From positions 1,556,001 to 1,620,000 of the forward strand of contig NZ_AP025944.1 in the NCBI RefSeq assembly GCF_024349685.1: DNA of 64,000 nucleotides. The letters run 5' to 3'. The DNA is from Pseudomonas sp. LRP2-20. Its GTDB lineage: Bacteria; Pseudomonadota; Gammaproteobacteria; Pseudomonadales; Pseudomonadaceae. The position numbers and the translations under genes were made by a program. Positions within the stretch are counted from its first letter, which is position 1; every line of letters begins with the position of its first letter. Shown piece after piece: positions 34,701-51,153 of this stretch. The notes beneath the pieces were generated by a model, which saw nothing but the letters and a program-made list of their open reading frames with translations, did not search any database and was not told the DNA's origin.

Positions 34701-36530
34701 ACGGCACGCGACTACCCCTGTACGCCATATGTGCATCAGCTGTTCGAACAGCAAGTTGCCCGCCAGCCGCAGGCGCCGGCGCTGACCTTCGCCGAACGTA
34801 CGCTGAGCTACGCCGAACTCAATGCCGAGGCCAATCGCCTGGCGCAGCACCTGCGTGGCATGGGCGTGGGCCCGGACGTGCTGGTCGGCATCGCCGCCGA
34901 GCGGTCGGTGGAGATGGTGGTCGGCCTGCTGGCGATCCTCAAGGCCGGTGGCGCCTATGTGCCGCTGGATCCGGAGTACCCGCAGGAGCGCCTGGCCTAC
35001 ATGTTCGAGGACAGCGGCATCGCCTTGCTGCTGACCCAGTCGCACTTGCGCGACGGCCTGCCGATTCCCGCAGGGCTGGCCGTGCTCGACCTGGACCGGG
35101 CCGAAGCCTGGAGCGCGCTGGACGCACACAACCCGGGCGTGCGGCTGCACCCGGAAAACCTCGCCTACGTCATCTACACCTCCGGCTCCACCGGCAAGCC
35201 GAAAGGCGCTGGCAACCGCCATGTCGCCTTGCACAACCGCCTGGCCTGGATGCAGGAGGCGTATCAGCTCAATGCCGATGACAGCGTGCTGCAGAAGACA
35301 CCGTTCAGCTTCGACGTGTCGGTGTGGGAGTTCTTCTGGCCGCTGATGGAAGGTGCGCGCCTGGTCATGGCGCGGCCCGGTGACCACCGTGACCCGGCGC
35401 GCCTGGCCGAGCTGATCACCCGCGAGCAGATCAGCACGCTGCACTTCGTGCCGTCGATGCTGCAGGCCTTCGTCGGTGACGAAAACGCCGCACGCTGCAC
35501 CTCGCTGCAGCGGATCATCTGCTCCGGCGAAGCGCTGCCGGTAGAGCTGCAACGCCAGACCCTGGCGCTGCTGCCGCAAAGCGGCCTGTACAACCTGTAT
35601 GGCCCGACCGAAGCGGCCATCGACGTCACCCACTGGACCTGCGTCGAGGAAGGCAAGGACGCCGTGCCGATCGGCCAGCCGATCGCCAACCTGCAGACCT
35701 ACGTGCTGGACGGTGAGCTGAACCCGGTCAGCCCCGGCGTCACTGGCGAGCTGTACCTGGGCGGCATCGGCCTGGCGCGCGGTTACCACTGTCGCCCGTC
35801 GCTGACCGCCGAGCGTTTCGTCACCAGCCCGTTCGGCGCCGGCCAGCGGCTGTACCGCACCGGCGACCTGGCGCGCCAGCGCGAGGACGGGGTGATCGAG
35901 TACGCCGGGCGCATCGACTACCAGGTGAAGATCCGCGGCCTGCGCATCGAACTGGGCGAGATCGAAGCGCGGCTGCAGGAGCAGGACGCCGTGCGCGAAG
36001 CCGTGGTAGTGGCCGCCGATGGCCCGAGCGGCAAGCAACTGGTGGCCTACCTGGTGGCCGAGCAGGCCGATAGCCTGGAGGCAATCAAATCGCACCTGGC
36101 CGCCGTGTTGCCGGACTACATGGTGCCGAGCCAGTGGGTGCTGCTCGAGCGCATGCCGCTGTCGCCCAACGGCAAGCTCGACCGCAAGGCCTTGCCCAAG
36201 CCGGAGCTGGGCCAGTCGCGGCGCGAGTACCTGGCGCCGCAGAGCGAACTGGAGCAACGCCTGGCTGCCATCTGGCAGGAGGTGCTCAAGGTCGAACAGG
36301 TCGGCCTCAACGACAACTTCTTCGAACTGGGCGGCCATTCGTTGCTGCTGGTGCGCCTGGTTTCCCGGATCAAGACCGAATGCTCGGTCGAATTGCCGAT
36401 CCAGGACGCCTACCTCGCCGACGACCTCGGTGCCCTGGCCGCTTTGGTAGCCCGCAATGCGGGCCCGGCAGAACAAGACTACGACGCGATTTTTGACGCC
36501 TTGGACGAACTGGAGGCATTTGATGCTTAA
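28752..36530 (+). CDS. Pyoverdine side-chain synthetase NRPS2 (C-A-T-E-C-A-T, predicted D-Asp/OH-Asp then Ser)
   Basis: 2592-aa two-module synthetase. Module 1: LCL condensation (HHIVSDG near 178), adenylation with pocket D-L-T-K-I-G-H-V-G, an aspartate code, carrier GGDSIL near 1032 and epimerase (HHLVVDG near 1211, with the EGHGRE block). Module 2: DCL-type condensation ([14 protein letters not shown] opening, HHILMDG near 1680), adenylation with pocket D-V-W-H-I-S-L-I-D, a serine code, and carrier GGHSLLL near 2528. The condensation types agree with the epimerase positions. The Asp on module 1 is the presumed target of the upstream SyrP-like hydroxylase. ATG 28752 has a ggaggaggt ribosome site. 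The last 8 bases overlap NRPS3. Confidence 0.92.
34731..36334 (+). repeat. Near-identical Ser adenylation segment, copy A (NRPS2 module 2)
   Basis: 1604 bases covering the Ser adenylation domain to the start of the carrier domain. It is almost identical, base for base, to 42580-44183 (same length) and to 38056-39371 over its first 1.3 kb. Identity ends sharply at the carrier Ser motif. Confidence 0.88.
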
Positions 36531-50205: not shown

Positions 50206-51153
50206 ATGCTGCATCCTGAACTTGAAGCTTTTCTCGACCTGGCCGAAGCCAATGCTGGCAATGCGCCGTTTCATCACATGAGCCCTGTGGAAGCCCGCCG
50301 GGTGTTCCAGCAGTCCACCGAACAACTGCGCTGGGCAGCGCCTGAAAACCTGGCCATCGAAGCGCTGTACGCCCCTGCCAGGGACGGTGCGGCCATACCG
50401 CTGCGCCTGTATCGGCCGCCACAGGCAGCGGCCCGGTTGCCGGTGCTGGTGTATTTTCACGGCGGCGGTTTTGTCGTCGGCAGCCTCGACAGCCACGATG
50501 GCGTCTGCCGCGAACTGTGCGCAAGGGCCGGCTGCGCGGTATTGGCGGTGGGTTACCGGTTGGCGCCGGAACACCGTTTCCCGATTGCCCTGGAGGACGG
50601 TGAGGATTGCCTGGCCTGGCTGGCCAGCCAGGCTGAGTGCCTGGGCCTGGACCGCGCCCGTGTGGCCTTCGGCGGCGACAGCGCAGGTGCCACCCTGGCC
50701 ACGGTGCTGGCCATCGAAGCGGCGCGGCTGGGGGAGCGCGCAGCGCTGACGCCGTGTGCCCAGCTGCTGTGCTACCCGGTGACCGATGCCAGCCGGCAGA
50801 GTGTTTCGCGCACGCTGTTCGGCGAGGGTTACCTGCTGGAAAGCGATACCTTGGAATGGTTCTACGACCACTACGCACGCACGCCGCAGGACCGCCAGGA
50901 CTGGCGCTTCTCGCCGTTGCTGGCAGAGGATCTGAGCGGTGTCGCGCCAGCCATCGTTGCGCTGGCCGGGCTCGACCCGCTGCTGGATGAGGGGAGGGCC
51001 TACGTCGAGCGCTTGCGCGAGGCTGGAGTAGCGGTCGAGGTGATGGAGCTGCCGGGGCTGACCCATGACCTGTTGCGCATGGCCTCGGTGCTGCCGGATG
51101 TGCTGCAGGTGCATGAGCGGTTGTGTGCGGCGTTGGGGAGGGCGATGGGATAA
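50206..51153 (+). CDS. Alpha/beta hydrolase, HSL family, at the end of the NRPS unit
   Basis: 315-aa esterase/lipase-like protein without a signal peptide. Visible features are the oxyanion-hole motif YFHGGGFVVGS, the nucleophile elbow GGDSAGATLA, the acid in LAGLDPLLDEGRAYVERL and the His in ELPGLTHDLL, so the triad is complete. It starts 57 bases after NRPS3 and is probably co-transcribed, although a small GC hairpin (50167-50189) lies between. Because NRPS3 lacks a thioesterase, this enzyme is a candidate for releasing or cyclising the peptide, or for proofreading misprimed carriers. Its sequence type is that of hormone-sensitive lipase, not of classical type II thioesterases, so that role is a hypothesis. 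Confidence 0.85.
   Translation: MLHPELEAFLDLAEANAGNAPFHHMSPVEARRVFQQSTEQLRWAAPENLAIEALYAPARDGAAIPLRLYRPPQAAARLPVLVYFHGGGFVVGSLDSHDGVCRELCARAGCAVLAVGYRLAPEHRFPIALEDGEDCLAWLASQAECLGLDRARVAFGGDSAGATLATVLAIEAARLGERAALTPCAQLLCYPVTDASRQSVSRTLFGEGYLLESDTLEWFYDHYARTPQDRQDWRFSPLLAEDLSGVAPAIVALAGLDPLLDEGRAYVERLREAGVAVEVMELPGLTHDLLRMASVLPDVLQVHERLCAALGRAMG

Follow-up and report, generated by a model that had tools for sequence, protein, structure and literature searches.

The window analysed here is a stretch of 64,000 nucleotides (nt) from Pseudomonas sp. LRP2-20, corresponding to positions 1556001-1620000 of a one-contig 6.03-Mb genome, and it encodes three consecutive nonribosomal peptide synthetases (NRPS1, NRPS2 and NRPS3; head to tail, 25234-50148) followed by a single alpha/beta hydrolase of the hormone-sensitive lipase (HSL) family. 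The synthetases are assigned to a pyoverdine cluster, as the same genome contains a PvdL-type starter synthetase and as receptor and exporter genes lie beside the terminal synthetase. The last module of NRPS3, which is made up of condensation (C), adenylation (A), carrier (T) and epimerisation (E) domains and lacks a thioesterase (TE) domain, and the hydrolase encoded immediately 3' of it are the subjects of this analysis. Their features are as follows:

36523..50148, plus strand: NRPS3, terminal pyoverdine peptide synthetase, (C-A-T-E) x 3, no TE
45712..46956, plus strand: terminal C3, condensation domain of NRPS3
47017..48546, plus strand: terminal A3, code DGEACGGVT
48577..48786, plus strand: terminal carrier T3, FFELGGDSI
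48832..50148, plus strand: terminal epimerase-like E3, HHLVVDA, with EGHGRE kept
50149..50205, no strand assigned: spacer between NRPS3 and the hydrolase, 57 nt, strong GC hairpin of about -20 kcal/mol
50206..51153, plus strand: HSL-family alpha/beta hydrolase (Abhydrolase_3), HGGG / GDSAG / D257 / H287 intact; candidate N5-hydroxyornithine (OHOrn) deacetylase or release enzyme

NRPS3 is a single open frame, whose start at 36523 is accompanied by a GGAGG-type ribosome-binding site identified by eye, while the longest open reading frame (ORF) begins at 36457. Its matches comprise six stretches of PF00668 (C/E) and three each for A and T; the profile search gave no match to any thioesterase family in it, PF00975 included. 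The last 438 amino acids match PF00668 and exceed the cut-off of TIGR01720 (110.6 bits; cut-off 74.2), so that the C-A-T-E reading of the third module in the initial annotation is confirmed. This region contains the motifs HHLVVDA at residue 4258 and EGHGRED at residue 4396 (numbered from 36457), and the stop codon comes directly after [10 protein letters not shown]. The A3 code DGEACGGVT is taken to be of the OHOrn type, and A3 is the sole OHOrn-type A domain found in the genome (E<=1e-145).

The possibility raised earlier, that a further NRPS elsewhere in the genome supplies the TE, was not borne out. No NRPS beyond NRPS1-3 and PvdL was found, as all 14 C/E domains found in the genome fall in these four proteins, and none of the six PF00975 matches in the genome lies in an NRPS-sized frame. 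The strongest TE-family match is a stand-alone type II TE of 240 amino acids (genome 3764069-3764788), some 2 Mb away from either pyoverdine locus, which was matched at 54-100% identity in all 76 hydrolase-positive genomes tested (38 with an E-ended and 38 with a TE-ended line); it was thus rejected as a specific stand-in for the missing TE. The type II TE gene forms a small cluster with an MbtH-family and an isochorismatase-family gene (about 3763.4-3765.5 kb; G000 contig 1, L023:7458-9457).

The residue following the HHxxxD motif is glycine in all 75 internal E domains compared and alanine in E3 of the window, while the 49 terminal E domains carry threonine (25), alanine (10), leucine (2) or glycine (12) at this position, 44 of the 49 having passed the filter of the comparison. 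The EGHGR motif is retained in 46 of these 49 domains, and the terminal E domain may still epimerise despite its altered motif. The cyclic OHOrn of pseudobactin is D-configured, with which a D end of the NRPS3 product would agree.

The hydrolase has 315 amino acids and matches PF07859 with 234.7 bits (cut-off 25). The residues Ser159, D257 and H287 are conserved in 99-100% of 112 hydrolases, that of the window included, in keeping with the intact Ser-Asp-His triad and the HSL type proposed for it from the outset. It falls below the curated cut-offs of the LipP1-family HSL model NF058653 (298.6 vs 350 bits) and of the chloramphenicol-hydrolase model NF033149 (225.9 vs 500 bits), and its closest named relatives among the matches listed are from Pseudomonas. 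The AlphaFold2 model (mean predicted local distance difference test score 91.3, predicted template modelling (TM) score 0.92) is nearest to HSL esterases of metagenomic and other origin, namely LAE6, Est8 and EH1AB1 (TM 0.93-0.94), and all of the 50 top-ranking structures listed are esterases, none being an NRPS thioesterase. They include EstDL136 (6iey and 6aae, ranks 27 and 35, 39-40% identity), an HSL enzyme for which removal of acetyl groups and cleavage of an amide are described in the available part of the source (PMC6333409). This likeness of the predicted structure fits an acetyl-removing role of the hydrolase, although a deacetylase and a release enzyme would use the same fold.

Presence of the hydrolase was called at E<=1e-60, and it was found in 125 of 298 Pseudomonas genomes. 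The 112 loci that were read comprise the window, 100 hydrolase-positive relatives (24 of the 125 being left out) and 11 named loci, which may repeat species of the sampled genomes and were drawn from 80 of the 570 hydrolase relatives listed. As many as 69 of these 80 are from outside Pseudomonas, and no NRPS was seen beside the hydrolase relative in the 13 non-Pseudomonas loci checked (L037-L049). The hydrolase adjoins the terminal NRPS in 104 of the 112 loci, 49 of which are E-ended (37 sampled relatives, the 11 named loci and the window) and 55 TE-ended, the latter with the motif GWSLGx in 54 cases. Lines ending in E occur in 38 of the 101 genomes read, hence in at least 38 of the 298 sampled, and are a common second type of pyoverdine line, not an oddity. 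The 104 terminal A domains beside the hydrolase all carry a code of the OHOrn type (DGEACGGVT in 100, DGEACGGIT in three and DGEVCGGVT in one).

Among the eight loci without an adjoining NRPS, the hydrolase stands apart from the synthetase genes in seven, and all seven genomes contain an OHOrn-like TE-ended module, the A domain of which is 63-64% identical to A3. The neighbours were viewed for four of them (L154, where the hydrolase lies beside a pvdE-like gene, L220, L224 and L243). The eighth (L255, genome G013; 45% match) was set aside as a distant paralogue, as it is encoded outside a pyoverdine locus and its branch in the tree is very long; it nevertheless contributes to the tree of 112 rows and to the counts of conserved residues and of the 125 genomes.

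For comparison, 40 of the 91 pvdE-positive genomes without the hydrolase were examined, a non-random set consisting of those with listed coordinates. Their lines are TE-ended in 33 genomes, scored as C-ended in four (one of them, L195, fragmentary, so that its C ending is unreliable) and unclassified in three (L176, L215 and L179, the last with a T-TE fragment where a contig ends). The code DGEACGGxT was found in none of the 33 TE-ended lines. Three of the C-ended lines (L181, L185 and L214) have a third kind of ending, in which an OHOrn-like A-T-E-C run closes the line, with HHILLDG in the last C and no TE. The statement of the initial annotation that pyoverdine lines normally end in a TE thus holds for 33 of the 37 classified lines without the hydrolase, and for only 55 of the 104 beside it, the other 49 being E-ended. 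Judged from these gene contents, the hydrolase tracks the terminal OHOrn module and not the absence of a TE, since its presence beside 55 TE-ended lines means that a missing TE is not the reason for it. Of the earlier proposal that the hydrolase is a candidate release or editing enzyme, a role at the terminal module therefore appears likely, given the tight tie, while the loss of the TE does not explain its presence.

In the tree of the 112 hydrolases, the E/TE label changes only once, with a support of 87 for the E side, and the side on which a hydrolase falls agrees with the ending of its line in 104 of 104 loci. Comparison trees were constructed from 30 genomes, 15 E-ended and 15 TE-ended. 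The label again changes once in the hydrolase tree (30 rows, support 99) and once in each of the trees of the terminal C, A and T domains (support 99, 97 and 79, respectively), while five changes, at least three of them forced, occur in the tree of the penultimate A domain (27 rows). Six changes, at least four of them forced, are found for the adjacent receptor (30 rows, five of which are less than half filled; each genome is represented by whichever receptor-like frame close to the hydrolase or pvdE was best). The weakly supported pvdE tree has seven changes, just one of which is forced (starred branches), and the rpoB tree has nine, at least eight of them forced (29 rows, as G231 gave no rpoB match). 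Species switch their ending often, and the terminal module and the hydrolase appear to be exchanged as a release cassette, because the hydrolase and the terminal C, A and T domains split once, against the many changes in the receptor, pvdE and rpoB. As the neighbouring receptor does not follow the E/TE label, the pattern is unlikely to stem simply from the block hitchhiking as a whole.

The genome also encodes a protein of family PF13523 (Acetyltransf_8; 191.7-193.9 bits, cut-off 27) at 1806628-1807638, about 0.8 kb before PvdL with a sigma-factor gene in between, which is predicted to be a PvdYII-type OHOrn acetyltransferase on the basis of its domain, its place and the available part of PMC3596284. 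An assignment to an IucA/IucC-type siderophore was rejected, as no IucA/IucC synthetase was found in the genome of the window. Every one of the 125 hydrolase-positive genomes, G013 among them, has a relative of the acetyltransferase. In 14 of 30 such genomes, including that of the window, one OHOrn-type A domain alone was counted (E<=1e-145; in some genomes, including G029, G104 and G190 of the 14, 50 of 57 to 71 candidates were scored). With one OHOrn module and an unacylated cyclo-OHOrn as the final residue, an acetyl group would have no lasting place and must be removed; we infer a removal step of this kind, with the hydrolase as its agent. In the parts available of two reviews, acetylation of OHOrn by PvdYII is thought to precede the formation of cyclo-OHOrn and release (PMC6206403, PMC9569983), and a genome paper, likewise available in part, names P. 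putida KT2440 among those that have PvdYII and ties this enzyme to cyclo-OHOrn (PMC3596284).

These observations, namely the architecture, the fused TE that was not found, the tie between the hydrolase and the OHOrn module and the constant company of the acetyltransferase, come directly from the sequences, and they can be accommodated in the following scheme. Ornithine would be hydroxylated at N5, and the PvdYII-type enzyme, whose gene lies next to pvdL, would then acetylate it there, the acetyl group keeping the hydroxylamine from reacting too early. The terminal A domain would load the acetylated OHOrn and E3 would convert the residue to the D form, after which the hydrolase would take the acetyl group off the OHOrn on the carrier. 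Once free, the N5-hydroxylamine would react with the thioester of the same residue, which would close the six-membered cyclo-OHOrn ring and set the chain free with no TE involved. The third option of the initial annotation, in which the OHOrn side chain attacks the thioester that holds it, is likely for the ring-closing step; we infer that the residue is loaded in acetylated form, that it is the hydrolase that deacetylates it and that the chain is released by the closing of the ring. Taken as a whole, the interpretation that the terminal C-A-T-E and the hydrolase constitute one release cassette for cyclo-OHOrn-ended pyoverdines, in which acetyl protects, the hydrolase deprotects and ring closure frees the chain, is favoured tentatively and somewhat short of even chances. 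A fuller version, in which this protecting-group-gated release without a TE is assisted by the epimerase-like domain, whose altered HHxxxD(T/A/L) motif would hold or even catalyse ring closure to D-cyclo-OHOrn, and in which species exchange the module together with the hydrolase that matches it as one cassette, is rather doubtful.

Several points weigh against the deprotection cassette. The acetyltransferase is also present in 44 of the 91 pvdE-positive genomes without the hydrolase, and EstDL136 is just one of many esterases matched, at ranks 27 and 35. To our knowledge, no hydroxamate N-deacetylase has been described in the HSL family. Related terminal codes occur in TE-ended lines without the hydrolase (DGETTGGIT in L177 and DGEASGGVT in L182), and in the C-ended L185 the last A domain reads DGEACGGIT while no hydrolase was found within the 20 kb covered, which is an exception to the wider OHOrn-hydrolase rule, though that line ends in neither E nor TE. 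The terminal C, A and T domains share a gene with the feature that defines the label, so that their single change partly reflects linkage, and these trees do not separate linkage to the terminal module from function. P. fulva is reported, in the part of the source available, to have an internal AcOHOrn (acetylated OHOrn) together with a terminal cOHOrn (cyclo-OHOrn) (PMC12195549).

Among the alternatives, the hydrolase may be a trans-acting thioesterase/cyclase, whose Ser159 would take the peptide from T3 and close the OHOrn ring, and which would be redundant or an aid in TE-ended lines. The intact triad and oxyanion motif and the lack of any fused TE among the genome matches agree with this role, as do the clade formed by the hydrolases of E-ended lines, for which it stays a serious rival, and the spacing of 5 nt or less, or the overlap, between NRPS and hydrolase in 15 of the 49 E-ended lines (measured on longest ORFs, so that overlaps are perhaps overstated). 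A substitute for the TE should not, however, persist in the 55 adjacent and seven non-adjacent TE-ended lines that have the hydrolase, and the structural matches listed hold esterases and no NRPS thioesterase; the role is therefore considered unlikely, if still worth serious attention. Self-cyclisation of an unprotected OHOrn thioester might alternatively be spontaneous, with the hydrolase acting as an editing enzyme that clears the terminal residue where it is stalled, lacks the hydroxyl group or bears the wrong acyl group. This would agree with its occurrence at both endings and its tie to terminal OHOrn, but it leaves the acetyltransferase in every hydrolase-positive genome unexplained, also in the 14 of 30 for which one OHOrn-type A domain alone was counted, and is quite unlikely.

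Release by the stand-alone type II TE (3764069-3764788), with an unrelated role for the hydrolase, has in its favour that this protein is the strongest TE-family match in the genome and that its gene adjoins an MbtH-family gene. Its occurrence in genomes of both endings does not tie it to the missing TE, however, and the link between the hydrolase and OHOrn would be left unexplained, which makes this reading very improbable. Least credible of all, with hardly any weight given to it, is that the hydrolase has no role in assembly and is simply carried along when pyoverdine DNA recombines: the gene does adjoin the terminal module and neighbouring genes recombine together, but the receptor on its other side shows six E/TE changes against one for the hydrolase, the hydrolase is still accompanied by a terminal OHOrn-like module in all seven cases where it is not adjacent, and the catalytic residues are almost invariant. 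Overall, the hydrolase, inherited with the last module, probably helps to free the finished pyoverdine, perhaps by removing a temporary protecting group.

The nearest counterparts of the NRPS3 line are the 55 TE-ended OHOrn lines with the hydrolase, which share with it the OHOrn-type terminal A domain, the adjacent hydrolase and a PvdYII-type acetyltransferase in the genome, but possess a TE instead of the terminal E and have their hydrolase and terminal C-A-T on the opposite side of the trees. EstDL136 has the HSL fold in common with the hydrolase, whereas its substrate differs and the hydrolase stays under the NF033149 cut-off. In coelichelin biosynthesis, a hydroxyornithine siderophore line without a TE is likewise accompanied by a stand-alone hydrolase, CchJ. 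PvdD of P. aeruginosa PAO1 is likewise the last synthetase of its line but contains a TE, which NRPS3 lacks (PMC6206403, PMC9569983, as far as available). The type II pyoverdine of P. aeruginosa has a terminal cOHOrn and the OHOrn acetylase PvdYII, as predicted here, according to the available parts of PMC9774294 and PMC3596284. In the portions available, the release of cyclo-OHOrn pyoverdines is described tentatively, with PvdYII acetylation pointed to (PMC6206403, PMC9569983), and at least one pyoverdine mining pipeline marks the end of a line by its TE (PMC11444679). No link of a hydrolase of this kind to pyoverdine release was found in the open-licence literature, within the portions accessible. 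A specific gene is now named as paired with the OHOrn ending, and a cassette that swaps the release mode together with its enzyme would, if true, serve NRPS engineering.

The remaining genes of the pyoverdine locus in the window are as follows:

24208..25185, plus strand: TauD-family dioxygenase, 5' of NRPS1, candidate aspartate beta-hydroxylase
25234..28749, plus strand: NRPS1, C-A-T, A-domain code DGEAHGTVV
28746..36530, plus strand: NRPS2, C-A-T-E-C-A-T, codes DLTLIGHVG and DVWLISLID
51528..54005, minus strand: TonB-dependent receptor, convergent with the hydrolase, PF00593 173.4 bits
54090..55817, minus strand: cyclic peptide export ABC transporter, TIGR01194 783.7 bits

The receptor is presumably FpvA-like, judged by its position, and the exporter is taken to be PvdE-like. 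As both lie 3' of the hydrolase on the opposite strand, the hydrolase is the final gene of the NRPS run. A plus-strand frame at 51123-53957 was rejected as the receptor, as it has no family match. The PvdL-type starter synthetase (4345 amino acids; genome 1808481-1821518) contains the codes DAELIGAVM, DVWLFGRIN and DIWLLTADD, presumed to specify Glu, Tyr and diaminobutyrate (Dab), while the code of NRPS1 is assumed to be Lys-like and those of NRPS2 Asp-like and Ser-like, respectively. The predicted product is chromophore-Lys-D-(OH)Asp-Ser-D-Ser-D-Ser-D-cyclo-OHOrn, where the residue names are presumptive and the D positions are taken from the E domains.

The pattern TAAAT-N15-18-CGT, which we take to resemble the PvdS box, occurs five times in the window, including one copy 5' of the TauD-type gene (24011, plus strand) and one 5' of the exporter gene (55857, minus strand); the window scan gave none between NRPS3 and the hydrolase. 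The spacer hairpin (50149-50205) is absent from the output of the terminator scan and may tune the expression of the hydrolase. Hairpins of different sequence were also seen in the spacers of seven of nine hand-picked relatives (L026, L116, L117, L137, L141, L147 and L148), that of L117 being followed by seven T. Within NRPS3, the first two A domains (A1 and A2) contain an exactly identical stretch of 492 bp (38623-39114 and 43147-43638 of the window), suggestive of recent duplication or gene conversion.

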